A stretch of 50,138 bases of DNA from Candidatus Bipolaricaulota bacterium (GTDB lineage: Bacteria; Bipolaricaulota; Bipolaricaulia; M55B111): assembly GCA_018334915.1 (NCBI GenBank), contig JAGXLB010000004.1, forward strand, positions 1-50,138, written 5' to 3'. The notes beneath the pieces are model-generated. The model saw only the letters and a list, made by a program, of their open reading frames with translations, was not told the DNA's origin and made no database searches. Of this stretch, positions 21,155-37,946 are shown in pieces. How positions within the stretch are numbered: position 1 is the stretch's first letter; each line of letters begins with the position of its first letter. The position numbers and the translations under genes were made by a program.

Positions 21155-22345
21155 TTAACTAACCATCTCCCTCACCATTTCTCTGAATGATTTACCTCCA
21201 GTTACCGTCAGCTCTCCGACGATCCCCCGAGGCATGGAAAATACGACGAAAATAAAGATGATTCCAATTAAGATACTTGTCCAGCCGCCGATTAGAGGAT
21301 TTAAGAAGTGCTCCAGCAGTAAAATAATTCCTGCTCCCAGAATAGCCCCTTTGAGCGTTCCAAGCCCTCCAAGTACAGCAAATATGAGAGCCCGAATAGT
21401 AATAAAAGGATCGAATACATTGCCGGCACTTACCGTGAGCAAATAGGGGGCGTATAAGCCGCCAGCCAATCCAGCAATTGAGCCAGAAACAGCCAGGGCA
21501 AGTAATTTGTAGTTAAAGGTATTATAACCTATAACTTCGGTCCTCGTTTCGTTTTCCCTTATAGACTGCCATACTTTTCCCACGGGGGAACTAACGACCC
21601 TTCTGATCAGGAAGTATATGGCGACAAGGAACGATAGCGTTAAGTAGTAGCGGTTTGCGGTTAGTCTTTCAAAGCTGGCTGCTGACTCAAGGTAACTTAA
21701 ATGTTCAGTTGCAAAATAAAATATCCCTCCAATAATACCGGAGCTAACAAGCATCGTGGGGACCTGCTGGAGCAGGGAGAAATTCCTGGTATTTTTGTAT
21801 ATCGCGACCAGCAGACCGATGGCCAGTAACCCCAGAAAACCGTATTCGAAGACCCTGATTGCCCATATGGACTTCAAAATCCCGGGTAATGGTACTAGTA
21901 TTCCACCTTCTCCTCCGCTGACCGGCCTGAAGATCCTTTTTTGGAACATGGAAAGGATTATCATGACAAATGCCAGACTGAAAAAAGTAAATGGAACGCC
22001 TTTGAAGGATCTCCTGACTATCAATGACAGGATTACGCCAAGAATTGCTCCCACTAAGAGGCTGAATAAGAGGGCGACCATAAAGTTGAATTCAGTCCAG
22101 TTCAGCGTGTAGGCAGTAATATATGCACCCATCCCGAAAAATAGTGACTGACCAAAATTGAGAAGACCCGTGTATCCCAGTAATAGATCAAAAGAGAGGG
22201 CATAGATTGATATGGCAAAAATCCTGGTTAATATATCGGCAAAAGGTAAATTAAAGTAAAAAAAGATGGGTATCAAAGCAAAAAATAGCCCGATAGTTGC
22301 CAGTGGATACGAGTTAGACTTTAGGTGTTTAGCTAAATTCCTCAT
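21155..22345 (-). CDS. livM: Branched-chain amino acid type ABC permease LivM
   Basis: The 396-residue membrane protein has about ten hydrophobic segments and the LivM signature LSFDLLLGYTGLLNFGQSLFFGMGAY. Its C-terminal portion contains GLAGGLYAPYLL and AVLGGLGTLKGAILGAG. With LivH it forms the translocation path of a LIV-type importer. The ATG overlaps the livH stop by four bases (ATGA), so the two subunits are translationally coupled. It is the last gene of livK-livG-livF-livH-livM. Confidence 0.92.
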   Translation of the reverse strand: MRNLAKHLKSNSYPLATIGLFFALIPIFFYFNLPFADILTRIFAISIYALSFDLLLGYTGLLNFGQSLFFGMGAYITAYTLNWTEFNFMVALLFSLLVGAILGVILSLIVRRSFKGVPFTFFSLAFVMIILSMFQKRIFRPVSGGEGGILVPLPGILKSIWAIRVFEYGFLGLLAIGLLVAIYKNTRNFSLLQQVPTMLVSSGIIGGIFYFATEHLSYLESAASFERLTANRYYLTLSFLVAIYFLIRRVVSSPVGKVWQSIRENETRTEVIGYNTFNYKLLALAVSGSIAGLAGGLYAPYLLTVSAGNVFDPFITIRALIFAVLGGLGTLKGAILGAGIILLLEHFLNPLIGGWTSILIGIIFIFVVFSMPRGIVGELTVTGGKSFREMVREMVS

Positions 22346-23208
22346 TGTGTCGCACCCCCAAGCAGCCCCTCGGGTTTTAGTAGCAATACTGCTGCCATTA
22401 GAATAAATAAACTGGGCCCGGCGAGGAAAGGTATATAATAAGCGAAAAGTTCGTGAATTATTCCAGCCAGAAGGGCGGCGTAAAACGTACCTTTAAAGGA
22501 ACCTAACCCACCGATTACTACAATGGCGAAAGCGAAGAATAAATAGTTTAATCCGAGATCGACGCTGGCATATATCCACCCGACAGCTGCTGCCCCCCCC
22601 AGTCCGGCTAAAGCACTACCTACCGCGAAAACCAGGGTAAAAGTCCTCTTGGTATTTGCGCCCAGAGCTTTTGCCATATCGACGTCATCAATGCCTGCCC
22701 GGACTATCAGTCCGACATTAGTTCTATTTAAGAATAAGAAGACACCGCCGGCAATTATAAATCCCAGAACGATTATAAAGAGTCTGTACTTATTAATGAT
22801 AATTGGACCGGGTTTTAACGTGCCCTGGATGTAGGAAGGAATCGTGCCGTAGGTTGAGCTGGCCGCTCCGTATCTTAATAACGCCCCGTGATGGATAATA
22901 TACATTATTCCCAGAGTCAACATTATGATCGCCATCTCGTTCCCAAACTTCCGCCGCAGGAGACCGGATTCGACTAAAGCGGCTAAAATTGCCATCGCTA
23001 TACCGGCAGCTAGTAGGCCAAGGTAAAAGCTTCCAGTGTAACTAACTACCTCGTAGGAAACAAAAGCCCCGAGCATAAAAAAGCTACCGTGAGCAAAATT
23101 TACGATATCCTCAAGACCAAAGATCAGCGAAAAGCCAGAAGCTATCATAAAGTAAAGCATGCTTAACGCCAATCCGTCGATTAACGCGCTAGCCAGAGTA
23201 GAAATCAT
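22342..23208 (-). CDS. livH: Branched-chain amino acid type ABC permease LivH
   Basis: The 288-residue membrane protein carries the LivH motifs LSMLYFMIASGFSLIFGLEDIVNFAHGSFFMLGAF (abridged here to its ends: LSMLYFMIASG and NFAHGSFFMLGAF), RAGIDDVDMAKALGAN and AFAIVVIGGLGSFKGTF. Length is normal. It follows livF by about 13 bases and overlaps livM. The substrate cannot be read from the permease. The genes around it point to a carboxylic acid as much as to an amino acid. Confidence 0.92.
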   Translation of the reverse strand: MISTLASALIDGLALSMLYFMIASGFSLIFGLEDIVNFAHGSFFMLGAFVSYEVVSYTGSFYLGLLAAGIAMAILAALVESGLLRRKFGNEMAIIMLTLGIMYIIHHGALLRYGAASSTYGTIPSYIQGTLKPGPIIINKYRLFIIVLGFIIAGGVFLFLNRTNVGLIVRAGIDDVDMAKALGANTKRTFTLVFAVGSALAGLGGAAAVGWIYASVDLGLNYLFFAFAIVVIGGLGSFKGTFYAALLAGIIHELFAYYIPFLAGPSLFILMAAVLLLKPEGLLGGATQ

Positions 23209-23221
23209 TTAACTCACCCAA

Positions 23222-23929
23222 TTATTGGACTCCCGTGCCAAGATATTTCTCGGCTATCTCAGAGTTTTCGATTAATTTTTCTATATTGCCTTTTTCCTCG
23301 ACCACACCATTAGCCATAACTAAAAACTTTTCGGCGAATTTTTCTGCCAGCTGAAGATTGTCCGCAACTAAAAGGACTGAGGCTCTTTCCTTGACCTTGT
23401 CCAGAGCTCTATAAACCTTTTGGCTGTTCTCAGGGCTCAGGCCTTCCGTCGGTTCGTCTATTAAGAGTAATTCGTTGCTCTTATCGACCATTGCGCGGGC
23501 CAGAGCCAGTAACTTTTGTTCGCCACCACTGAGAGACTTGCCCAGGTTTGCGCTGTGATCTTTGAGGAGAGGAAATAGCTCGTAAGCGTATTCCAGGTCT
23601 GCGGAGTCCTGGTTGAGGGTTCCCATCCTCAAGTTTTCTTCCACAGTTAGGTTAGAAAATATCCGTGCTGAGTCGGGAGAGTATCCAATGCCCTTTTGGG
23701 CAATTTTGTAGGGTGGAACCCCGAGAAGCGATTCCCCTTTGAATGCAACATCTCCGTCAAAAGGCGGCCATAAACCGAGTATGCTTTCCAGGGTCGTAGT
23801 TTTGCCCGCCCCATTTCGCCCCAGTATTGCAACCAGCTGTCCTTCGGGAACCTGAAATGAAACCCCCTGCAAGACGTAAGCTTCCTCTATCTCTACGTGG
23901 ACGTTCTGAAGTTCTAAGATGTTTTTCAT
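23222..23929 (-). CDS. livF: Branched-chain type ABC ATPase LivF
   Basis: The 235-residue ATPase has Walker A GRNGAGKTT, signature LSGGEQKLLALARAM, Walker B LLLIDEPTEGLSPE and an H-loop region where D-N-L replaces the usual E-H (VADNLQLAEKFA). The E-H replacement is normal for LivF proteins, which typically read VEQN at this place. It pairs with LivG as the motor of the importer. Two bases separate it from livG. Confidence 0.92.
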   Translation of the reverse strand: MKNILELQNVHVEIEEAYVLQGVSFQVPEGQLVAILGRNGAGKTTTLESILGLWPPFDGDVAFKGESLLGVPPYKIAQKGIGYSPDSARIFSNLTVEENLRMGTLNQDSADLEYAYELFPLLKDHSANLGKSLSGGEQKLLALARAMVDKSNELLLIDEPTEGLSPENSQKVYRALDKVKERASVLLVADNLQLAEKFAEKFLVMANGVVEEKGNIEKLIENSEIAEKYLGTGVQ

Positions 23930-23931
23930 GT

Positions 23932-24693
23932 TTAACCCAGTGCTCCCAAATAAGCCTGCTGTACTTCATCGTTCTGTCTAATTGCTTCCGGCGTGCCTTC
24001 CGCAAGTGTTTTTCCATCAGCAAGCACACAAATTTTATCCGAAATATCCATAACTATATCCATGTTATGTTCGATTAAAACTATAGATAGGTCTCCACGA
24101 ACCTCGTTAAGCTTTTCTATCACGTCTAGAACTTCCGGTATTTCCTCCATGGCCATACCCGCGGTCGGTTCGTCGAGTAGAAGTAGTTCCGGATCCGTGG
24201 CAAGAGCAATGGCAAAGTCCAGTTTACGCTGATTGGCTCGAGTGAGGTTCCCTGCCTGGGTTCCGTATTCTTCGTTCAGGTCAACTTTATCAAGTAAATT
24301 TTGGGACTTTTCTATGAAATTTTGATAGCTATCGGCACGGGAAAACATGTCATAAGTAGTTTTTGAGCCACCACGGCTCTGGGCTGCTATTCGGACGTTT
24401 TCCAGAGTGGGAAGTGAGGGAAAAATTTGAGTAAGCTGAAATGACCTGGCAATTCCTTCTTTAGACCTCTCCTCAGGAGAAAAGTCCGTTATTATTTTTC
24501 CTTTATAGGTAATCTCGCCGCTTGTTGGCTCAAGCAAACCTGAGAGCAAATTAAAAAAGGTAGTCTTTCCTGCTCCATTTGGGCCGATTATCGCTTCGAT
24601 CTTTCCCCGGGGAATCTTGAGATCAACATGATCCACAGCAGTCAGACCGCCAAAATCTTTCGTTAAACCTTTCGTTTCGAGTATTGTTTTCAT
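23932..24693 (-). CDS. livG: Branched-chain type ABC ATPase LivG with degenerate signature
   Basis: The 253-residue ATPase has Walker A GPNGAGKTT (about 37-45), Walker B LLLLDEPTAGM (catalytic Glu175) and the H-loop VLIEHNMDIVM, as in LivG. The ABC signature, normally LPYGQQRRLE in LivG, reads LTRANQRKLDF (150-160): the signature glycine is alanine and the next Gln is Asn. I confirmed this by translating the DNA. One of the two composite ATP sites of the LivF/LivG pair may therefore be weak. The gene starts 57 bases after a long intercistronic hairpin that follows livK. Confidence 0.92.
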   Translation of the reverse strand: MKTILETKGLTKDFGGLTAVDHVDLKIPRGKIEAIIGPNGAGKTTFFNLLSGLLEPTSGEITYKGKIITDFSPEERSKEGIARSFQLTQIFPSLPTLENVRIAAQSRGGSKTTYDMFSRADSYQNFIEKSQNLLDKVDLNEEYGTQAGNLTRANQRKLDFAIALATDPELLLLDEPTAGMAMEEIPEVLDVIEKLNEVRGDLSIVLIEHNMDIVMDISDKICVLADGKTLAEGTPEAIRQNDEVQQAYLGALG

Positions 24694-24805: not shown

Positions 24806-26164
24806 TTATTCTTCTTCTGAAATGGGTTCGTAGTCGGTCTTGATAGGCGGATCAATATACTCTCTTGGTACTTTAGTCATCCTATCGCCAATTATTAGAC
24901 CCACGGTATCGCTACTTCCGATATCGTCTTCGGCGGAATCGACTACAGCCCTGGCGATGTACATAGGTCTTACGCCCTGATGGTCTTCGGGTCTGATAAT
25001 CGTTGCACCAATAGGCGTTTCCAGTTCCATACCTTCCCAGGCCTTGATCAAGCCTTCCGGGTTGGAGACTGACCCGCGCCTGAGACCTTCCACGATGAAC
25101 TGGGCAGAAGCGAACGCCTGACCGTGCCAGAGTTCAGGTACACTTGCCTTGGAAAGCTTATCGAACATGTCCCCTTCCTCCTGAGAATAGGCCGCAGCGA
25201 AGGCATCTGGTCGGATATCGTTCTCCTGCATCGTTTCTACCAGGAAATCGTATTCAGGTCCGGAGTTCACGTCGTAGGCAAAGTAACAGAAACCCTCGGC
25301 TCCTTCGTATAGCCCCCCGGAAAGGAGGTTGACCCTGTTCATTGTAAACAGGTCTATTACGGAACCTACCGCTTTGTCCATCATTTCCATATTGTTGATT
25401 CCTTTATATAGAGGGGCAAATCCGCTACCAGCCCAGACTATATATAGGATATCAGGATCCTTGTTTTTGATCCTTTGAAGGTAAGGCTTGAAGTTTTTTG
25501 TATCGGGTGGTGCAAACTCCGTTGCCACGGATTCTACACCGTAGTCTTCAAATGCTTTCTTTGCTGTTTCAACGCCGTTTTGACCGAACGTCTGGTCGAT
25601 ACTCAGATATGCAACGGTATCGACGTCCTGTTCTTCCGAGTAGTAATAAGCGGAAGTCTTGGCGTCGTGCCAGTTACTCCGTCCAACGCGGAAGATGTAT
25701 TTATTGAATTTGGGTTTCTGGGTTAGGTCCGCGGAAGCCGCAGGGGCCATAAAGAATGGGGTTTCGTAAGTTTCGGCAATTCTTTGAATAGACGTTGCCA
25801 CCGGGCTATGGGAAGTACCAAACAATAAATCCGCGTTCCAGCTGGTAATTGCCTGGCGAGCTTTCGAAACTCCCACTTGCGGGGTTCCTTCCGTATCAAA
25901 TATTCTAATATTGATGTTCGTCCCGTTATCCATTTCATAGGGTCCTTCCCAATCCGGCGAGTCAGTCGCGTACTGGAGCCCTATCTTAAACCCCTGGATG
26001 GCCCATGTACCGTAAAAGTAAAGGCCCTTTTGAGGTCGAGGTTGAAGTACTGCTATTTTGACATCGTCATTTTGTGCTGTAGCTATCGGGGAGATACCAG
26101 CCAAAAGCACCGAAGTAACCAAAAGAACAACTGCAGTGAAAGCTAAATTTCTTTTAGCGTTCAT
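24806..26164 (-). CDS. livK: LIV-type ABC transporter substrate-binding protein
   Basis: The 452-residue protein has a signal peptide (LAFTAVVLLVTSVLLAGISPIATAQ shortened: VVLLVTSVLLAG then ATAQ), no lipobox Cys, and a type I periplasmic-binding fold: KIAVLQPRPQKG, LLFGTSHSPVATSIQRIAE, TPFFMAPAASADLT, YLSIDQTFGQNG and DILYIVWAGSGF. It is longer than E. coli LivJ/LivK (about 345 mature residues). This subfamily often binds carboxylates, amides or aromatic acids, so leucine is not assured. It lies between an acyl-CoA ligase gene and livG, all on the same strand. Confidence 0.88.
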   Translation of the reverse strand: MNAKRNLAFTAVVLLVTSVLLAGISPIATAQNDDVKIAVLQPRPQKGLYFYGTWAIQGFKIGLQYATDSPDWEGPYEMDNGTNINIRIFDTEGTPQVGVSKARQAITSWNADLLFGTSHSPVATSIQRIAETYETPFFMAPAASADLTQKPKFNKYIFRVGRSNWHDAKTSAYYYSEEQDVDTVAYLSIDQTFGQNGVETAKKAFEDYGVESVATEFAPPDTKNFKPYLQRIKNKDPDILYIVWAGSGFAPLYKGINNMEMMDKAVGSVIDLFTMNRVNLLSGGLYEGAEGFCYFAYDVNSGPEYDFLVETMQENDIRPDAFAAAYSQEEGDMFDKLSKASVPELWHGQAFASAQFIVEGLRRGSVSNPEGLIKAWEGMELETPIGATIIRPEDHQGVRPMYIARAVVDSAEDDIGSSDTVGLIIGDRMTKVPREYIDPPIKTDYEPISEEE

Positions 26165-26318: not shown

Positions 26319-27836
26319 TCAATCCTTCTCTCTTCCGAACTTTTTTTCGACTCTGTCTCTTTCCAGCTTCCCGTAAGAATTTCTGGGGAGTTTTTCAGCC
26401 CTTTCAAAGGATTTGGGCACTTTATAGCTCGCAATTTGGTTCTCACAGTACTCTTCTAATTCCTCTTCGTCAACCTGTGAACCTTCGCTCGGAACGATTA
26501 TTGCGTGTCCCACTTCTCCCCATGTTTCATCCGGAACGCCAATCAGAGCTGCGTCAGCGACATCCGGATGCTCTTTTAACACTCTTTCAACCTCTGCGAG
26601 GTAAATATTTTCACCACCGGAAATTATCATATCTTTCTTCCGGCCCTCGATGTAAAAGTAACCCTCTTCGTCCATTCTGGCGAGGTCACCTGTATGAAAC
26701 CAGTCGTCAGTAAACGCTTCCTCAGTTTCTTCCGGTTTCTTCCAGTATCCTGAAAAAACGTGAGGACCGGCAAGTAACAATTCGCCGATCTCTCCAGGGC
26801 TAACCTCGTCACCTTGATCGTCGGCTATTCTGGCGTTTTCGTGAATGACTGGTTTTCCAACGGAACCTTCTTTCTGAAGGGATTCAGCCGCTGTTTCCGA
26901 AAAGCAATTATTCCCTACTTCCGTCAAACCGTAGCCCTCCTTGAATACCAGACCCCTTTCTCTATAAGTTTCTTTTACCGATTCCGGGGCAGGGGCTCCT
27001 CCCGATATCAGGAACCGGATTGAACTAAGGTCAGCTCGGGAAAATAAGTCAGTTTCACTCATCATTTGAAACATTACTGGAACCATAAATACCACAGTGG
27101 CGGACTCTCGCTCTACCATTCGAAGCGTATCTTCCGGGTCGAATTCCTTCGTAACCACAACTCTTCCACCGACATGATAAAGCGGTGTGAGAACTGTATT
27201 CAAACCACCTGTGTGAAACTGGGGGGTCACCACGGGAGCTATATCGTCCTCAGTTAAGCCCCAGGACGTCACCGTATTGACTGAATTCCATAAAATCATC
27301 CTATGGGGTAGCATTGCCCCCTTTGGCCTTCCGGTTGTGCCGGAAGTATAGAGTATTGCGTGAGGTTCTTCCTTTTTTACGGGAGTACTAGGTTCAGGCC
27401 GCTCGGCGGAGGCGGTCTCAAGTGCTTTCTCGTACTCGGAGAGGTGTATCCAGTTTGCGTCAGTGTAACTTCCCTTTAATTCCTCCGTGTGCTCGCTGCA
27501 TTCGTCATCGTAAAGAACTATTTCCGGTTCACAATCCCCCAGGATATACTCCAGTTCGGGCTCGGCAAGTCGCCAGTTTAGCGGTGCCAGAATCGCTCCT
27601 ATTTTACCCAGGCCAAAGTAGAGATCGGAGTAATGTACTCCGTTAAGAGCCAGTACAGAGACCCGATCACCCTTCTGGATCCCGTGCTCCTCGCGAAAGC
27701 AGTTAGCCGCTTTGTTGGCTCGCCTGTTCAACTCGTCGTAACGCAGGCGTTTCCCCTGGTCCCAGTCTACCCAACCCACCTTATTTGGTGTAAGGTTGGC
27801 TCTCCTCTCAAGTATCTGTCCTACGTCTGGCTCCAT
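26319..27836 (-). CDS. AMP-forming acyl-CoA ligase (fatty or aromatic acid)
   Basis: The 505-residue ANL-family enzyme activates a carboxylic acid with ATP and CoA. It has [18 protein letters not shown] (P-loop), GYGLTEVGNN, DDWFHTGDLARMDEEGYF, IEGRKKDMIISGGENIYLAEVE and the terminal catalytic Lys in LPRNSYGKLERD. It is of the class of medium-chain acyl-CoA and long-chain-fatty-acid ligases, and the substrate is not readable from sequence. The ATG is three bases after the upstream hydrolase stop, with GGTGATAT as ribosome site. It precedes livK by about 150 bases, so uptake and activation may be linked. Confidence 0.9.
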   Translation of the reverse strand: MEPDVGQILERRANLTPNKVGWVDWDQGKRLRYDELNRRANKAANCFREEHGIQKGDRVSVLALNGVHYSDLYFGLGKIGAILAPLNWRLAEPELEYILGDCEPEIVLYDDECSEHTEELKGSYTDANWIHLSEYEKALETASAERPEPSTPVKKEEPHAILYTSGTTGRPKGAMLPHRMILWNSVNTVTSWGLTEDDIAPVVTPQFHTGGLNTVLTPLYHVGGRVVVTKEFDPEDTLRMVERESATVVFMVPVMFQMMSETDLFSRADLSSIRFLISGGAPAPESVKETYRERGLVFKEGYGLTEVGNNCFSETAAESLQKEGSVGKPVIHENARIADDQGDEVSPGEIGELLLAGPHVFSGYWKKPEETEEAFTDDWFHTGDLARMDEEGYFYIEGRKKDMIISGGENIYLAEVERVLKEHPDVADAALIGVPDETWGEVGHAIIVPSEGSQVDEEELEEYCENQIASYKVPKSFERAEKLPRNSYGKLERDRVEKKFGREKD

Positions 27837-27838
27837 GG

Positions 27839-28630
27839 TTATATCACCTCATCCAGAAAATCCAGAACTTGGTTACAGAAAACGTCGGCACGTTCTATGG
27901 CAGATGCGTGCCCTGCATCTTCAATAATTTTCAACCGCCCATCTGGAATTCTAGACGCCATGTAACGCGAGTACTCAGGTGGAGTGAGTATATCCTTTTC
28001 CCCAACGACAATCAGGGCAGGAGCAGTTATATTTTCTATTGGTTCCGGAAGTTCAAGTATTTTTGCGCCCTCAATGAGGTTTTCCGTGGCTTCTTGCGGA
28101 GCCTCGTGAGCTGCCTCTTTAAATTGTTCAAAGAGCTCCTGATTGTTCTCCAGAAAGGTCCCCCCCCAGACGTAAGGAGTGGCTACCAGAAATCTTAGTT
28201 CAGGACTCACTCTCGCTGCTTCAAGCCACGCATCTATTTTAGCTTCAAGGATTGCATCAACGTAGGCATATGAATCAGCTAAAACCAGGGAGTTGACCAG
28301 GTGGGGATGTTCTAGAGCAAACGGCAAAAGCTCCGTGCCGCCATTAGATAACCCCAGGAAGTTCCCCTGCGATATACATAGCTCTTCCAGGAGAGCCGCG
28401 AGATCTTCTGCATGTTGGTTGACCGAATAAGGTCCTTCCGGTTTGTCGCTTTTACCCTGACCTCTCGAATCGAAGAGTAGAACCTGGTAATCGTCTTCGA
28501 AATAAGGAACGTGCTGAGCCCAGCTCTCTGTGTCAGTTAGCAATCCGTTTACCATTACCACCGTCTCTGCCTCAGGATCGCCTCTGAGTTCGTAATGGAG
28601 GTCTATTCCGTTTACGTGAGCTTTAGCCAT
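27839..28630 (-). CDS. Alpha/beta hydrolase
   Basis: The 263-residue protein has the alpha/beta hydrolase layout: VVMVNGLLTD (oxyanion loop), LFDSRGQGKS, nucleophile elbow GLSNGG, acid VGEKDILTP and catalytic His DAGHAS. Relatives include enol-lactone hydrolases, esterases and haloperoxidase-like enzymes, so the substrate is open. It resembles the next gene upstream throughout, so the two look like a tandem duplication. The ATG at 28628-28630 overlaps the upstream stop by eight bases. A GTG at 28637-28639 is an alternative. Confidence 0.85.
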   Translation of the reverse strand: MAKAHVNGIDLHYELRGDPEAETVVMVNGLLTDTESWAQHVPYFEDDYQVLLFDSRGQGKSDKPEGPYSVNQHAEDLAALLEELCISQGNFLGLSNGGTELLPFALEHPHLVNSLVLADSYAYVDAILEAKIDAWLEAARVSPELRFLVATPYVWGGTFLENNQELFEQFKEAAHEAPQEATENLIEGAKILELPEPIENITAPALIVVGEKDILTPPEYSRYMASRIPDGRLKIIEDAGHASAIERADVFCNQVLDFLDEVI

Positions 28631-29423
28631 TACTATCACTTATAAAATCGGTTACCAGAGAGTTTAATACTTCCGGTTTTTCGATATGAATAAGATGGGC
28701 TGCACCTTCAACCACCTCTAACCGGGAATTGGGTATTCCTTCGTTTAGCTGCTCGGCAAATTGGCCTGGAACTACTCTATCTTCCTCGCCGGATACTATC
28801 AGGGTATCGGTTTCAATTTCCCCGAGTCGGTCACTTAAGTCAAATTCTGAAGCAGCCTGAAATTGCCGCTGGTACGCTTCTTCCGGTTGAGCGTCCTCAA
28901 CCCTCATATCGACTAATTTCTCTACGGTCTCCTCATCCTCGAAAAAATCTTCTGAGACTGAATACCGGTACCCCTTACGGTAAATTTCTCTCTCGCTCAG
29001 ACCCTCGACGTCCAGAATTTCTTCCCATAGGTCGCCGGTGGCGGCCAGGTACTTGGGCCCACCTGCATGAGTAGAAACCAGAATCAGTTTTTCTACAAGA
29101 TCCGGCCATCCAAGTGCAAGATGCTGAGCAATATACCCCCCCATGGACAAACCCAAAACGTTAACCTGGTTCAGGTTTAACTCATCTATTAAACCCTTAA
29201 CGTCTCGAGCCATGTCTTCCATCTCGTATTCCCGATCGACGATCTCTGATTTTCCTACGTCCCTATTGTCAAACAGAACCAGCTCAAAGTCCTCTTTCAG
29301 TTCCGGAACCTGGTTGAACCAAAACCGGGACGAGTAGCCCAACCCCTGAATCATAACTAACGGGGGGCCCTCTCCCTTAACTTCGTAATACAGATCTACT
29401 CCATTAATGGTCTTTTTTGGCAT
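28623..29423 (-). CDS. Alpha/beta hydrolase
   Basis: The 266-residue protein starts MPKKTINGVDLYYEVKGEG. The ATG is at 29421-29423 with GGAGGT upstream. The TTG at 29436-29438 is less likely. It has VMIQGLGYSS, LFDNRDVGKS, GLSMGG with the nucleophile Ser, SGEEDRVVP with the acid and GAAHLI with the His. The class is that of 3-oxoadipate enol-lactonase and similar hydrolases. Four bases separate the SDR stop from the TTG alternative. It may open a lactone or thioester produced in the pathway. Confidence 0.85.
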   Translation of the reverse strand: MPKKTINGVDLYYEVKGEGPPLVMIQGLGYSSRFWFNQVPELKEDFELVLFDNRDVGKSEIVDREYEMEDMARDVKGLIDELNLNQVNVLGLSMGGYIAQHLALGWPDLVEKLILVSTHAGGPKYLAATGDLWEEILDVEGLSEREIYRKGYRYSVSEDFFEDEETVEKLVDMRVEDAQPEEAYQRQFQAASEFDLSDRLGEIETDTLIVSGEEDRVVPGQFAEQLNEGIPNSRLEVVEGAAHLIHIEKPEVLNSLVTDFISDSNG

Positions 29424-29441
29424 TCTAACCACCTCCAATTG

Positions 29442-30182
29442 TCAGATTACCAGCCCTCCGTCGACATTAAAAACGGAACCGTTGATGTAACTTGCATCAT
29501 CCGAAGCAAGAAATAGATAGGTTTTTGCTACTTCTTCTGGCTTTCCGAGTCTGCCCAGAGGTGTCCGATCTTCAATGTTTTTGATTACCTTTTCCGGTAC
29601 TCCTTCTGCCATACTGGTCTGAATAAAACCAGGAGCTACGGCGTTGACATTGACGTTTTTCGGGCCTAATTCTCTCGCCCAGACCTTTGTCATTGCAATC
29701 AATCCGGCCTTGCTTGCCGCGTAGTTCGTCTGACCGTAGTTTCCGTATAGACCTACAATTGAACTGGCATTTATAATCTTACCGTTCTCCCTTTCCACCA
29801 TTCCCGGCGCCACGGCCTGAGTGCAATTAAATGCTCCTTTGAGGTTTACGTCAATAACCTGGTCCCATTGTTCTTCCGTCATGTCGAGCAACTTTGCGTC
29901 CTGGGTAATTCCAGCGTTGTTAATCAGAACTTCAATGGGGCCGAAGTGGTTTTCGATCTCTTCAACAGTTTTATCCACCCGTTGCCTATCCGATATATCC
30001 AGCTCGAAGAATTCTGCTTCCCCCTCGGCCTCAGCGAGATCCTTCTCAACTTTTTTGCCTTCTTCATCATCCAGGTCACATATAGCTACTCTGGCACCCT
30101 CCTGGACGAAAGTTTCCGAAACTAGTCGACCAATTCCGTTAGCTCCTCCCGTAATCATCGAAACTTTGCCATCTAATTTCAT
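29442..30182 (-). CDS. Short-chain dehydrogenase, FabG/PhaB type
   Basis: The 246-residue SDR has TGGANGIG (nucleotide loop), D-L-D after strand 2 (CDLDDEE, an Asp that favours NAD(H)), NNAG, and the catalytic Ser-Tyr-Lys (NASSIVGLYGNYGQTNYAASK given by its ends: NASSIVG and YAASK). The C-terminus INGSVFNVDGGLVI is typical of 3-oxoacyl-ACP or acetoacetyl-CoA reductases. In an acyl-CoA operon it probably interconverts 3-hydroxyacyl and 3-oxoacyl thioesters. AAGGAGGTAAAA lies before the ATG. Confidence 0.9.
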   Translation of the reverse strand: MKLDGKVSMITGGANGIGRLVSETFVQEGARVAICDLDDEEGKKVEKDLAEAEGEAEFFELDISDRQRVDKTVEEIENHFGPIEVLINNAGITQDAKLLDMTEEQWDQVIDVNLKGAFNCTQAVAPGMVERENGKIINASSIVGLYGNYGQTNYAASKAGLIAMTKVWARELGPKNVNVNAVAPGFIQTSMAEGVPEKVIKNIEDRTPLGRLGKPEEVAKTYLFLASDDASYINGSVFNVDGGLVI

Positions 30183-30192
30183 TTTTACCTCC

Positions 30193-31239
30193 TTATATCC
30201 ACCTAAATAAGCTGACTGACATCACGAAGCCGGCTCCGGAAGTACAAAACGCGACAAGATCGCCGGACTCAATTTTTTCCTCCTCCAGTGCATCATGTAA
30301 AGCCATCAGGACGGAAGCTGAACCAGCGTAGCCAAATTTATCCATTACAAGATGCGTTTGAGAAAGGTCAAGATTGAGCCTTTCCATTGTTTCTTCTATA
30401 GTGGATTTATCTATTTGATTAAACAATATGCTATCTAAGTCCTTTACCTCGGCATTTACCTTGTCCATTGTTCCCTCAACTAGTTCCGGCCATCGGCTTT
30501 CGTTAAAATCCGGGGGTACGTGATGTTCGTTCTCGTGGAATCGTAAGTGGTGTTCCCCTTTCTCAATCATCTCCTTATCCAGGGGTTTAGCTGTCCCCAG
30601 ATAAATTCCGTAGGCATCCCAGAATTCACCCTCAGTCAGAGTATTGGAGGCTAAGTAACCAGGTTGCTGCGAACTTGAAAGGACTACCGCTCCGCCCCCA
30701 TCTGAGAATAGCATACCCAGGACCTTTGAGGCAGAATTAGAGTAATCGTCCCAGTCAAGCCATTTAGTCATACCGTATGCACCGGCGACCAGCACGTTCT
30801 CTATCTCCGGGTCGAGAGTGATGTATTGTGAACCAATAGCCAGACCCATGGTCTCGTCAGTACAGGCAGCGTTAATATCAAAAGACCCGGCGTTTTCGGC
30901 ACCTAGCTTATGCTGAAGGATTGCTGACGTTGGAGGGGTTACGTAATCGGGTGTATCGGTCGCTAATATAATTAGATCCAGATCCTCCGGGGATAACCCG
31001 GCTTCATCTAAAGCCTGAGAAGAAGCCTCTGCTGCCAGATCAGAGGTGCTTTCTTCAGGATCTGCTTTGAAACGTACATCGATACCTTTCTCTTCGAGAT
31101 AATCCTCTACGTCGTAATTCATCCTTTGGCCAAGTTCTCGGTTAGTAATCTTGTTCTCCGGCAGGTACATTCCCGTACCGGATATTTTTGCCGCGCTAAT
31201 ATTATCAGTAGGAAGACTCAAATCCTGCAGTTCTTTCAT
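30193..31239 (-). CDS. KAS III-like thiolase-fold protein with altered catalytic triad
   Basis: The 348-residue protein aligns over its whole length with FabH: ISGTGMYLPENKITNREL, DINAACTDETMGL with the nucleophile Cys126, LFSDGGGAVVL and the C-terminal SGAGFVMSVSLFRW. The other two triad residues are lost: the HQAN site of FabH reads N274-Q-I-D, and the G-N-T-S-A-A-S site reads G303-Y-A-G-S-A-S. Cys alone remains. It may be a non-condensing acyltransferase or a different thiolase-fold enzyme. It sits between thiolase and the SDR, 11 bases from the latter, with GGAGGTATAG as ribosome site. Confidence 0.82.
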   Translation of the reverse strand: MKELQDLSLPTDNISAAKISGTGMYLPENKITNRELGQRMNYDVEDYLEEKGIDVRFKADPEESTSDLAAEASSQALDEAGLSPEDLDLIILATDTPDYVTPPTSAILQHKLGAENAGSFDINAACTDETMGLAIGSQYITLDPEIENVLVAGAYGMTKWLDWDDYSNSASKVLGMLFSDGGGAVVLSSSQQPGYLASNTLTEGEFWDAYGIYLGTAKPLDKEMIEKGEHHLRFHENEHHVPPDFNESRWPELVEGTMDKVNAEVKDLDSILFNQIDKSTIEETMERLNLDLSQTHLVMDKFGYAGSASVLMALHDALEEEKIESGDLVAFCTSGAGFVMSVSLFRWI

Positions 31240-32781: not shown

Positions 32782-34023
32782 CTAAATCCCCATTCCGTTG
32801 AGAATTAGGTCAAACATTGCATCAAATTCAGGAGCGGGAGTTCTTTCCCGGTTTTCCTGAACAAACCACTTCTGACCCAGGAAATGGCCTATACCCATCA
32901 GTGAATAAGCAAGGACCCCCGGGTGGATTGTCCGAATTTCTCCGCTTTTTGAAGCTTTTCGTAACGCTTCTCTATAACGGGTGGCAAAGTTTTCATAATA
33001 CCATCGGCCCAGGGATTTTTCTACGAACTCCGCTTCCCGAACGATCCGATACATACCAGAATGGTTGGCGATAAACATGAAGAAAACTCGGAAACCTTCA
33101 TATTCTACCTTCAACCTGTGGTCTGATTCTCGAGTCCTTTTCTCTACTTCCTCTCTCCACCTTCTATTGATCTCCCGAACCAGTTGCTCAAATACTTCTA
33201 GTTTGCTCGAGAAATGATGGTAAAACGTCCCCTGTGCCACTTCTGCCTGACGGGTAATATCCCCGATTGTAGTTCCGTAAAATCCATCTGCGCCGAAACA
33301 ATGTTCGGCGGCAGATAGTAACTTGAATCGGGTATTGCTTTTGTTTTTTGGTAATAATTCTGGTTCATTTTTGTGGTTTTTTACTTGGAGCGGTGTGAAG
33401 GGAGGCCGCTCAAAGTTTTTAGCACTATCTTCAGTACTGAGGCCCTGAATCAAAAATTCCTTCAAACTTTTGACTACTTTCTCGTCAACTGAATATGACT
33501 CCCAGATGATCCATCTCATGGAAACAAAGCTTAGCGTTCCCAGCAGGTAATGTGCCATCAATTGAGTGTCGTGCTCTTGAAAGTACCCACTATCTATACC
33601 CTGGGTAAAAACAGAACCAAGTGTTTCTGTAAGTTTTGTATAAAAGGCTTGGTGGGTATTCCAATTTACGAACTCGGCCTGCCAAAAGATTTGATAAATA
33701 GAAGAGTGGTTGCGCAGAAAGGAAAAATAAGTTTGCAAAAGTAGTGCAAGTCGACTATCAAATGGCTCTCTTGAGTCGAGAACTTTTCCTTCAATTTCTT
33801 TTGTTAGATCAGCACCCAGCTGCTCCGCTATCTCTATAAAGATATCCCGCTTATCGGTGAAGTAACGATAAAATGTCCCGTTCGAAACATTTGCCCTTCG
33901 GCATATCTCGGCAACAGAAGAGCGAAAGAACCCACGGTCCTCAAAAATCTCTTCAGCCGACCGAAGCAGTTTATTATATGTCCTCCTGGCACGAGGAGTA
34001 ATTGGTTCTTGGACCTCAGTCAT
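32782..34023 (-). CDS. Tandem (duplicated) TetR-family transcriptional regulator
   Basis: The 413-residue protein holds two complete TetR units. Unit 1 has its helix-turn-helix at about 15-62 (SSVAEICRRANVSNGTFYRYF). Unit 2 has it at about 232-276 (GTTIGDITRQAEVAQGTFYHHF, quoted in parts). The ligand/dimer domains also match: NHSSIYQIFWQAEFV in unit 1 and NHSGMYRIVREAEFV in unit 2, so the duplication covers both domains. One chain could form a pseudo-dimer. It lies upstream of the thiolase operon on the same strand and probably controls it through acyl-CoA or a related ligand. Confidence 0.88.
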   Translation of the reverse strand: MTEVQEPITPRARRTYNKLLRSAEEIFEDRGFFRSSVAEICRRANVSNGTFYRYFTDKRDIFIEIAEQLGADLTKEIEGKVLDSREPFDSRLALLLQTYFSFLRNHSSIYQIFWQAEFVNWNTHQAFYTKLTETLGSVFTQGIDSGYFQEHDTQLMAHYLLGTLSFVSMRWIIWESYSVDEKVVKSLKEFLIQGLSTEDSAKNFERPPFTPLQVKNHKNEPELLPKNKSNTRFKLLSAAEHCFGADGFYGTTIGDITRQAEVAQGTFYHHFSSKLEVFEQLVREINRRWREEVEKRTRESDHRLKVEYEGFRVFFMFIANHSGMYRIVREAEFVEKSLGRWYYENFATRYREALRKASKSGEIRTIHPGVLAYSLMGIGHFLGQKWFVQENRERTPAPEFDAMFDLILNGMGI

Positions 34024-35267: not shown

Positions 35268-37946
35268 TTAACGCAACTGCAAGACCATCTTCACAGTATC
35301 GGAGTCTCTCTCTTCCTCCTGGAACCCCATTTTCCGGACCAGCTGAACCATTGGTTTGTTGTTTTTCAGTATCGTTGCGTAAATGCTTTTGAGGTTTTTG
35401 TCCTCAGCTACTCCTATTATCGAATCCGTGAGTTTCTCACCAAGACCCAGTCTCTGCCAGGGGTCCCCTACGACGACCGCGTACTCCCCGGTATCCTGGC
35501 TGGGACCAATTATCAAACGGCCCACACCTATCATTTTCTTTTCTCCGTTCTCTTCCAGGATTCCGATTATCGCCATTTCCCGTCTGTAGTCTATATTCGT
35601 ATATCGGGTCATTTCCCTGTGAGAGACCTCCGTTCTGGGGCCAAAGAACCGCTGACGCCAGGTCTTATCCGAGAAAGAATCGAATAATTCGAACTCCAAC
35701 GGTTCGTCTTCCGGTTTTATCGGTCTCAGGGTAACGTTCCTGCCGTCGTCGAGCCTCCACTCTTCCGTGTACTGCCTCGGATAGGGTTCGATAGCAAGGT
35801 GTTCGTGAGTTTTTTCGACTCTCTCGTCCTTGAAGGTGTCGTCGAGGATCATCCTTGCGTCAAGAGCTTTAAAGGAACCGTCTATTACTGCAAGAGGATT
35901 TATATCGATTTCTTTGATTTCGGGAAAGTCAATTATTAGCTGGGAGAATCTGACTAATTGTTTTTCCAGCTCCCTAATATCTGCTCCTTCTTTACCCCTA
36001 TATCCCCTGAGCAACTGATAAACTTTCGTGTCTTCCATAAGCCTGTGAGCTAGCACCTGGTTTAACGGAGGGAAGCCGGCTGCAGTGTCCTTGTAAAGTT
36101 CTACCCCCGTTCCACCGCGTCCGAACAAGATGGACGCACCAAACAGGGGGTCCTTCTTTGAGCCGAGAATGAGTTCGTAGTCCACGTTGGAAAACATTTT
36201 TTGAACGGTTACCCCGAGTATCTCTGCCGAAGGCTGATGGTTCCTAGCCCGTGAGACTATCCTTTCATAAGCCTGTTTTACTTCTTCTTTGCTCTGTAAA
36301 TTAAGTTCGACCCCACCCACGTCAGTTTTGTGAGTTATGTCGTGGGAGTAAACCTTTAAAACGACCGGATAGCCTATTTCGTAGGCTTTGTTAGCTGCCT
36401 GATCGGCTGATTCGGCGACTTTGGTGGACGAAGTTGGAATATCGTAAGTGTCGAGAAATTTCTTTGACTCGACTTCGGACAGCGTTGATCTCTCCGAACT
36501 CAGAACTTTTCTTACCATCGCTTTCAGATGGTGGTGGGGAGGCTGGTTATTTACCGGAAGTTCCTCAGGAGTTTCGTAGAGCAATTCAAGGTTACGGGCG
36601 TACCGATGCATATACATATAGGCGCTTATCGCCTGCTCCGGTGTCGGTCTTGTCGGAACGTTTTCATTTCGCAGGAGCTTTCGTCCCCGGTCAACTTCCC
36701 CCGCTCCCATGAATGACGTAACTATCGGCTTCTCAGTTTCCTTGGAAACCGCTGCTACCGCCTCCGCAGCGTCCCTGGCCGTGGCTTCTCCCTGGGGGGC
36801 GTAAATTACAATTACGCCGTCCACGTCTTCGTCCTCCTGACACGTTCTAATTGCGTCTTCGTAACGAGTTGATCCCGCGTCACCCAGGACATCTACGGGA
36901 TTTTTTACGCTGGCGTGGTCGGGCAGCAGTTCGGTTAATTCCTGTTCTGTTTCGGGGTTCAGGTCTGCTAGCTCACCACCGGAATCAAGTATGGCATCAG
37001 TGGTCATTATCCCCGGTCCCCCGGCATTTGTTACCACGGCCATTTTCGGCCCTTTAGGGAGGTTCTGCTTGCTCAGAGTTTCCGAGCTGCTGAAAAGATC
37101 GTCGACGTCAGAAACACGAGTGACTCCGGCTCGCTTGAATGCAGCTTCGTATATTTGATCTTCTCCGGCCAGTGAGCCGGTATGAGATGCTACGGCTTCG
37201 GCACTCTCTGAGTACTTACCTGCCTTAACTACCAGGATCGGTTTGGTTCTTGCAAATCCCCTTGCCGCGCTCATGAACTTCTCCGCGTGTTTGACCGCTT
37301 CCATGTACATTATAATGCTATTGGTTTTAGGATCCTGGCCGAAGTAGTCTATCAAATCTCCGAAGTCGATGTCCAGCATGTTTCCCACGGAGACGAACGC
37401 GCTAAACCCAACTTTTGCCCTGGTTGACCAGTCGAGAATTGCCGATCCCATCGCGCCACTCTGGGATAAGAAAGCAACTTTTCCAGCGGCTGGATCTTTA
37501 CGCAGGAATGTAAGGTTCAAGTTCTGACCGGGTCTGATAGTTCCCAGACAATTTGGGCCGAGAAGTCTCATTCCGTGTTTTTGCCTCGCGGACTCGGTTT
37601 TTTCTTCCAGTTTCTTTCCTTCCTTTCCTGTTTCGCTAAAACCCGCGGAGATTATTATACCTGCTTCAATTCCTGATTCCCCGCATTCATCTACTATATC
37701 GGGAACCGTCTTGGCCGGCGTTGCTATGACAGCAAGGTCTACTTCCTTATCAATATCCTTAACGCTGGAAAACGCCTCGATGTCCATTATCGTTTCCTTG
37801 TTAATGTTTACGGGGTAAATTTCCCCTTCGAAGCCTTCGACGATATTCTCCATCAGAGTAGCCCCTACGGAACCTTCTTTTTCGCTTGCTCCGATCACGG
37901 CTAAAGATTCTGGATTAAAGATTTTCTCTAGGTTTTCAGCTGGCAT
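35268..37946 (-). CDS. ADP-forming acyl-CoA synthetase fused to GNAT acetyltransferase
   Basis: The 892-residue protein combines a CoA-binding domain (about 1-130, VIGASEKEGSVGATL), succinyl-CoA-ligase-like domains (about 140-460, with VASHTGSLAGED and His255 in the place of the phosphorylated His), an ATP-grasp domain (about 480-700, VLKVYSHDITHKTDVGGVEL given in part) and a C-terminal GNAT domain (about 725-892, RQRFFGPRTE and VVGDPWQRLGLGEKL). This is the architecture of Pat/PatZ protein acetyltransferases, which silence Acs. The active-site His and ATP-grasp loop look intact, so synthetase activity is possible too. GGGAGGCGG precedes the ATG. Confidence 0.9.
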   Translation of the reverse strand: MPAENLEKIFNPESLAVIGASEKEGSVGATLMENIVEGFEGEIYPVNINKETIMDIEAFSSVKDIDKEVDLAVIATPAKTVPDIVDECGESGIEAGIIISAGFSETGKEGKKLEEKTESARQKHGMRLLGPNCLGTIRPGQNLNLTFLRKDPAAGKVAFLSQSGAMGSAILDWSTRAKVGFSAFVSVGNMLDIDFGDLIDYFGQDPKTNSIIMYMEAVKHAEKFMSAARGFARTKPILVVKAGKYSESAEAVASHTGSLAGEDQIYEAAFKRAGVTRVSDVDDLFSSSETLSKQNLPKGPKMAVVTNAGGPGIMTTDAILDSGGELADLNPETEQELTELLPDHASVKNPVDVLGDAGSTRYEDAIRTCQEDEDVDGVIVIYAPQGEATARDAAEAVAAVSKETEKPIVTSFMGAGEVDRGRKLLRNENVPTRPTPEQAISAYMYMHRYARNLELLYETPEELPVNNQPPHHHLKAMVRKVLSSERSTLSEVESKKFLDTYDIPTSSTKVAESADQAANKAYEIGYPVVLKVYSHDITHKTDVGGVELNLQSKEEVKQAYERIVSRARNHQPSAEILGVTVQKMFSNVDYELILGSKKDPLFGASILFGRGGTGVELYKDTAAGFPPLNQVLAHRLMEDTKVYQLLRGYRGKEGADIRELEKQLVRFSQLIIDFPEIKEIDINPLAVIDGSFKALDARMILDDTFKDERVEKTHEHLAIEPYPRQYTEEWRLDDGRNVTLRPIKPEDEPLEFELFDSFSDKTWRQRFFGPRTEVSHREMTRYTNIDYRREMAIIGILEENGEKKMIGVGRLIIGPSQDTGEYAVVVGDPWQRLGLGEKLTDSIIGVAEDKNLKSIYATILKNNKPMVQLVRKMGFQEEERDSDTVKMVLQLR

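Follow-up and report, generated by a model that had tools for sequence, protein, structure and literature searches.

Several enzymes of the KAS III fold have been described with different active-site residues. In Escherichia coli FabH, decarboxylation is reported to require both the His and the Asn of the triad, and PqsC, treated in the same account, is a precedent for changed chemistry in this fold, its His not being needed for acylation of the Cys (86.9 vs 76.6 per second in the His mutant; PMC4807248). CerJ and ChlB3 are presented as acyltransferases that have the KAS III fold and an altered triad, which in ChlB3 is Cys-His-Asp (PMC9573744), and BioZ as an enzyme that keeps the canonical one (PMC7645780). 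HMG-CoA synthase (HMGCS), also of the KAS III fold, has Glu and Cys as key residues according to one report (PMC6392133) and a Cys-His-Glu triad with Glu as the base according to another (PMC13412983). In the steroid aldolases Ltp2 and Sal, a Tyr is described as acid/base in thiolase-fold C-C cleavage, within other motifs (PMC12329534).

The window, a stretch of 50,138 nucleotides from a Candidatus Bipolaricaulota genome (G000; G numbers denote genomes, L numbers loci or gene rows), encodes on its minus strand (30193-31239) a KAS III-like protein of 348 aa in which Cys-Asn-Tyr replaces Cys-His-Asn. The plus strand across these positions is full of stops, and the reading frame is that of the minus strand, which the preliminary description left unstated. 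We coin the name KASY for the KAS III branch of this gene. HMMER alignments to solved FabHs place NQID opposite HQAN and GYAGSAS opposite GNTSAAS, and alignment with FabH of E. coli K-12 pairs Cys126 with C112, Asn274 with H244 and Tyr304 with N274. These alignments, together with a check of the codons, confirm the two replacements read in the preliminary description, Asn274 for His (30418-30420, minus) and Tyr304 for Asn (30328-30330, minus). Its statement that the nucleophile is retained holds as well: Cys126 (30862-30864, minus) aligns with the KAS III cysteine and is Cys in 53 of 53 KASY rows.

By fold, full-length homology and catalytic Cys, KASY is a KAS III protein; it lacks the HQAN His and the GNTS Asn. 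Its best PDB match is Neisseria meningitidis FabH (4ryb, E 2.5e-40), and it scores 71.2 bits against Pfam ACP_syn_III_C (cut-off 26.6) and 55.6 bits against ACP_syn_III. Among the listed matches it falls below every NCBIfam cut-off, the best being NF006829 (202 vs 249 bits); the curated FabH model TIGR00747 gives 186.3 bits, under its cut-off of 292.1, and Pfam Thiolase_N 20.5 bits, under 26.4. A separate, canonical Cys-His-Asn FabH is encoded elsewhere in the window genome (L001, G000:C152). An AlphaFold2 model of KASY (11 sequences) has a mean pLDDT of 80 and a pTM of 0.84, with weak stretches at residues 1-12, 207-220 and 228-243, the latter two below 50. VIA-align superposes it on 4ryb with Z 42.8 (rmsd 2.0 over 309 residues) and on E. 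coli 1ebl with Z 42.1 (rmsd 2.4 over 310); the best 50 matches listed are all FabH or KAS III-like, which is not evidence against a likeness to thiolase or HMGCS.

Relatives were gathered from 100 related genomes (the window genome included) and from a scan of named genomes. Of these, 23 were aligned with the window protein and show 43-88% identity to it; a named near relative belongs to Candidatus Bipolaricaulota isolate GSL_GSL3510_1. A profile of these 24 sequences detects KASY in 20 of the 100 genomes of the phylum; a 21st genome over the same threshold, G013, carries a canonical protein. The scores are well separated, the lowest KASY (a truncated gene) reaching 513 bits and the best non-KASY protein 242. 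In a phylum-level group containing Caldisericota-named genomes, KASY occurs in 18 of 54 genomes. Nine of these (among G528-G537; L109-L126) carry two genes each, mostly adjacent, and the second KASY of this group, which has the same Cys-Thr-Tyr set, lies on a long branch of its own. KASY is rare in a Deltaproteobacteria-named group, where at least two of 395 genomes have it (up to five candidates scored per genome); one of its copies (L129, G445:C138) groups with Bipolaricaulota (L102) and has a similar operon, possibly through horizontal transfer or a mis-binned contig. A Chloroflexota plasmid carries a further copy (40.9% identity). The hosts are thus Bipolaricaulota, the Caldisericota group, a few Desulfobacterota-type genomes and this plasmid. 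In a literature search with partial coverage (titles and abstract openings), no paper describing the family was found.

Removed before any count were L002 and L004 (the window copy again), L034 (the L005 gene), L016 and L092 (the G019 gene with an in-frame TAG) and the fragment L013, whose longer form L098, with a gap at 332-334, was retained. The G019 gene (L055/L092, G019:C42) is either a pseudogene or an assembly error.

The 78 aligned rows fall into two states of the triad: 53 have Tyr304, with Thr (41) or Asn (12) and never His at position 274, and 25 have both His and Asn. Rows were sorted by Tyr304, so that only agreement at other positions counts as independent evidence; the 53 KASY rows represent 15 clusters at 70% identity. 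In a tree of all 78 rows built without the active-site columns, with E. coli FabH among the canonical rows, the state changes once, and all Cys-(Thr/Asn)-Tyr rows lie on one side with 100/100 support; long branches meet at this join (a warning of the tool), and no root is claimed. A second, unrooted tree of 44 rows (14 of the 53 KASY, 16 of the 25 canonical and 14 from two further groups of KAS III-like proteins described below) recovers KASY as one clade (100/98) beside the canonical rows (92/97). Among the window gene, its paralog in the same genome (L003) and L005, dN is 0.062-0.086 and dS 1.35-1.64, giving for these close copies an approximate dN/dS of about 0.038-0.058 with synonymous sites near saturation; KASY is clearly under strong purifying constraint. 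The preliminary description had proposed mapping the triad on a tree, and the result is an altered set that is fixed in a lineage: a distinct branch of KAS III, neither decay nor annotation noise.

The remodeling of KASY extends beyond the triad. Invariant in all 53 rows, and rare or absent in the 25 canonical ones, are Asp95 (T81 in E. coli FabH; 30955-30957, minus; two of 25 canonical rows), Tyr155 (D140), Met157 (L142), His296 (V266; 30352-30354, minus; no canonical row), Asn246 (likewise absent from all 25), Trp250, Pro251, Gly306 and Met312. Ser334 (30238-30240, minus) occupies the position of E. coli F304, where KASY has Ser in 48 rows, Thr in four and a gap in one, that is, Ser or Thr in all 52 rows with a letter; position 309 is Cys in 41 rows and Ser in 12. 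KASY shares with canonical FabH the whole fold, the length, the Cys nucleophile and a neighboring branch in the unrooted tree, but differs in the changes of His to Thr/Asn, Asn to Tyr, Phe304 to Ser/Thr and T81 to Asp, in many contacts to CoA and ACP, and in its catabolic operon.

Conserved His and Asn residues elsewhere in the protein raise the question posed in the preliminary description, of whether the catalytic pair has merely moved. His296 is the only invariant His of KASY, hence the only candidate, and with Asn246 it is present in all 53 KASY and in none of the 25 canonical rows; such a relocated triad would make KASY a normal decarboxylating condenser. His296, however, aligns with V266 of E. 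coli FabH, eight residues ahead of the Tyr304/Asn274 position. In the thiolase fold this should be the start of the strand that runs into the site, remote from Cys112, which makes relocation to the active site unlikely. The positions of FabH K214 and R249 are moreover replaced in KASY, and the window genome has its own canonical FabH. Thus, KASY-specific His and Asn residues exist, but we consider it very improbable that they restore the canonical reaction.

The CoA-binding residues of FabH are only partly recognizable. FabH is reported to contact CoA through W32, R36, R151 and two Asn (PMC4606726). In KASY the W32 position is aromatic in 43 of 53 rows and the R151 position Lys in 44, the R36 position holds Lys, Asn, Gly or a gap in most rows, N247 is retained in 22 of 53, and K214 and R249, presumably contacts to ACP, are replaced. 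Because these contacts are partly changed, CoA may be bound differently from FabH, or perhaps not at all; its binding may have been modified and not abolished.

The conserved acid invites comparison with HMGCS. Asp95 lies opposite the Glu of the HMGCS motif STES in a profile alignment (E 6e-10) whose profile consists of three near-identical sequences and whose match spans the N-terminal half only. KASY, like HMGCS, has the Cys and, on this alignment, an acid at the Glu position, and some KASY loci encode the same partners, an SCPx thiolase and a DUF35 protein. It differs in having Asp, not Glu, and in scoring far below the HMGCS models (TIGR01835, 41 bits vs a cut-off of 360.35; NF003274, 72.5 bits, under 244). 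An HMGCS-type His, the position of which we assume to be the HQAN site, is lacking, position 274 being Thr or Asn; the HMGCS alignment itself stops short of this position. Asp95 alone proves nothing, since two canonical rows also carry Asp there.

The preliminary description proposed that triad losses of this type mark acyl transfer or new chemistry. As a general statement this is reasonable, given CerJ/ChlB3 and PqsC, but KASY is not of the CerJ/ChlB3 type. Like these enzymes, it combines the KAS III fold and a retained Cys with an altered triad. In ChlB3, however, the GNTS position holds a His, and an Asp follows five residues later (GHLGASD); KASY has Tyr304 and Cys or Ser309 there. The same His/Asp arrangement characterizes the two additional groups in the 44-row tree, NF005308-type proteins and a 'GHFG' group, which therefore represent a different solution. 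NF005308 (PRK06840) is the third-best curated model for KASY (165.8 bits vs a cut-off of 315); its members also lack HQAN and occur as tandem pairs in two genomes, but they read GH(H/Q)GQND, with His and Asp, against GY(T/A)GSA in KASY, and form a distinct clade. At L160 and L161 (G308 and G129), the NF005308-type gene is paired with a tandem neighbor in which Gly replaces the Cys and HQAN is missing, possibly an active/inactive pair similar to PqsBC. Loci L163-L169 of the Deltaproteobacteria-named group encode a second KAS III-like variant with VNAN and GHFG..D (Cys-Val-His/Asp), which is ChlB3-like and scores under the NF005308 cut-off.

The strongest rival to the reading we favor below is plain acyl transfer without C-C chemistry, in which an O, N or S acceptor, or water, would take over the acyl group from Cys126. 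The retained Cys126, the loss of the decarboxylation residues, the precedent of CerJ and ChlB3 as acyltransferases of this fold (PMC9573744), and the alpha/beta hydrolase and CoA enzymes that adjoin KASY are all consistent with it. Against it stand the missing His/Asp pair, the separation of the KASY branch from the His/Asp groups included in the tree, and an operon that seems catabolic rather than biosynthetic; on balance we regard it as rather unlikely.

In the window, KASY belongs to a set of minus-strand genes. An SDR resembling FabG or acetoacetyl-CoA reductase (29442-30182) follows 11 bp downstream, and beyond it lie two alpha/beta hydrolases (28623-29438, with a GLSMG nucleophile motif, and 27839-28639, with GLSNG), an AMP-forming acyl-CoA ligase (26319-27836) with the usual C-terminal YGK lysine, K490, a Liv-type solute-binding protein (Peripla_BP_6; 24806-26164), and a Liv-type ABC importer of two permeases (BPD_transp_2) and two ATPases (ABC_tran, one with BCA_ABC_TP_C; 21155-24693). 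On the other side are a classical thiolase with all four catalytic motifs (C129, N357, H401 and C431; 31299-32636) and a two-domain TetR-type regulator that is often kept with the operon (32782-34023). The window thiolase contains some 35-40 extra residues around positions 50-90, an insertion found also in its paralog at L044 but not in the two aligned thiolases of the Caldisericota group. L044 (G000:C307:1-10795) is a second copy of the operon in the window genome, with TetR, thiolase, a KASY 88% identical to that of the window, SDR, ligases, hydrolases and binding protein. The region 35268-37946 encodes a protein of 892 aa in which an ADP-forming acyl-CoA ligase-like part is fused to a GNAT domain. 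Its architecture resembles, we presume, that of PatZ-type protein lysine acetyltransferases.

The gene neighborhood is conserved across the branch. Among 44 KASY loci (both operons of the window genome and two G532 contigs included), counting same-strand genes within about 10 kb and with many contigs short, we found SDR at 33, alpha/beta hydrolase at 33, TetR at 29, at least two Liv parts at 24, CoA activation (ligase or CoA-transferase) at 21, thiolase at 18 and DUF35 at nine; genes were labeled by phmmer, each family being represented by a single reference protein. At the 23 loci flanked by at least 4 kb on either side, the counts are SDR 20, hydrolase 19, at least two Liv parts 18, TetR 16, CoA activation 13 and thiolase 12. 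Three of the 23, the Deltaproteobacteria-named L038, L040 and L041, have none of these six with about 8 kb on each side, although L040 has one ABC ATPase on its strand; the contig of L039 is too short to judge. The Chloroflexota plasmid has the order SDR-KASY-CoA-transferase-thiolase-DUF35-hydrolase-ABC importer. Ligase and CoA-transferase, and classical thiolase and SCPx plus DUF35, thus replace one another while KASY, SDR and importer stay constant, which argues for one pathway; the gene families point to carboxylic-acid uptake, activation, oxidation and thiolysis. The suggestion that KASY may act on the same intermediate as the adjacent thiolase and reductase is borne out to the extent that the SDR is conserved and the thiolase often present, making action in the same pathway likely. 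Candidate substrates, namely 3-hydroxybutyrate or its oligomers, carnitine or betaine, and aromatic acids, found no support, and the best PDB relatives of the binding protein (3nnd and 3n0x) tie it to no ligand. Import of glycine betaine, described in hypersaline KB1 relatives (PMC4993014), offers a lead on the substrate.

Eight of the 44 loci combine KASY with an SCPx-type thiolase and a DUF35 protein, and DUF35 is near KASY in nine. This is the composition reported for PhlABC and for the archaeal thiolase/HMGCS/DUF35 complex (PMC6392133), and together with the eroded FabH-type CoA contacts it would suit a non-catalytic, structural partner of the thiolase, such as PhlA in PhlABC or PqsB in PqsBC. 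But PhlA is described as having Gly in place of the Cys (PMC6392133) and PqsB as lacking all three triad residues (PMC4807248), unlike KASY with Cys126 in 53 of 53 rows. The window operon also differs from these complexes in its classical thiolase; no match to DUF35 (PF01796) was found in the window genome, which is 84% complete, and many loci lack a thiolase. The invariance of Cys126 makes a structural role improbable in our judgment.

A further possibility is a thiolase-like role for KASY itself. KASY would thiolyze a specific polar 3-oxoacyl-CoA, leaving only acetoacetyl-CoA to the separate thiolase. The NEAF Asn of thiolases is reported to hold the catalytic water (PMC3406046), and in a profile alignment Asn274 falls on the corresponding N357 of the window thiolase; this Asn is present in 12 of 53 KASY rows only. 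Six loci of one Bipolaricaulota clade (L053-L058) lack a thiolase beside KASY, as the hypothesis would have it, but thiolases are encoded elsewhere in the genomes of that clade (G019, G022, G025, G028, G037 and G040). Nor is there a His at position 304, and around 300-337 the profile alignment gives no unambiguous counterpart of the GHP and CxG motifs of thiolases. Cys332 (FCTSGAG), considered as a counterpart of the CxG Cys, was invariant in the first 24 sequences, but is Cys in 33 of 53 KASY rows, the others having Val (nine), Thr (six), Ala (three), Ile (one) or a gap (one), and was for that reason discarded as a second catalytic Cys. We find thiolysis by KASY improbable.

A census of thiolases bears on the related idea that KASY replaces a thiolase. 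Of 36 KASY genomes, most of them incomplete drafts, 34 have a match to Thiolase_C and 26 to Thiolase_C_1. In nine (G000, G001, G011, G018, G094, G101, G503, G504 and G505), all matches over the cut-off are found no farther than about 10 kb from KASY; one of these genomes, G011, consists of a single contig (96% complete) and has all its thiolase matches at the KASY locus. A further eight (G010, G012, G042, G043, G103, G519, G528 and G537) have one of several thiolases at the locus, and in the remaining 19 the thiolases are elsewhere, on other contigs or were not found, no match being obtained in G099 (58% complete) and G105. At least in the nine genomes, KASY works beside a thiolase and not in its place; replacement is weakened both by these genomes and by the clade with non-local thiolases.

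The reading we tentatively favor, while giving it somewhat less than even chances, is that KASY is an active enzyme that makes or breaks C-C bonds on acyl-Cys126 without decarboxylation, in the catabolism of a carboxylic acid. KASY would descend from a FabH-like ancestor and retain acyl-cysteine chemistry at Cys126, the decarboxylation pair (His and Asn) having been replaced. The Liv-type ABC system would import a carboxylic acid, which the AMP-ligase or a CoA-transferase would convert to its CoA ester; the SDR would oxidize a hydroxyl group, and acetyl-CoA would be fed through the thiolase. In KASY, the acyl group would sit on Cys126, a carbanion would be raised or quenched by an acid/base set of Asp95 and Tyr304, and Thr or Asn274 with backbone NH groups would steady the oxyanion, a handling of the carbanion that we liken to that in HMGCS with its Glu. 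Carbanion chemistry by such a pair is plausible; we infer retained activity, the direction of the pathway and the roles of Asp95 and Tyr304 from the conserved residues and gene content. From the PqsC His mutant and the requirement of E. coli FabH for His and Asn, KASY is predicted to become acylated yet to fail in decarboxylating malonyl thioesters; the expectation in the preliminary description that decarboxylative condensation fails likewise follows from established FabH biochemistry. Counting against the favored reading are the Asp in place of Glu at position 95, seen also in two canonical rows, the partly changed CoA and ACP contacts, the three Deltaproteobacteria-named genes outside the operon and the many loci without a thiolase in reach, and with a competent thiolase next door the pathway does not require C-C cleavage by KASY.

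A bolder proposal, which we consider doubtful as it stands, is that Cys-Asp-Tyr constitutes a catalytic type new to the thiolase superfamily, performing non-decarboxylating C-C chemistry without His or Asn, and that KASY is the signature enzyme of an undescribed carboxylic-acid degradation pathway in Bipolaricaulota, Caldisericota and relatives. More generally, KASY is a KAS III variant whose function is probably new. Annotation tends to label KAS III relatives as starters of fatty-acid synthesis, the Chloroflexota copy being recorded as 'ketoacyl-ACP synthase III'; for KASY, a branch found mostly in catabolic operons, this label is probably wrong. An overlooked degradation route in poorly cultured phyla would be implied, and the branch would amount to a natural experiment on which thiolase-fold residues decide between decarboxylation and other kinds of carbanion chemistry.
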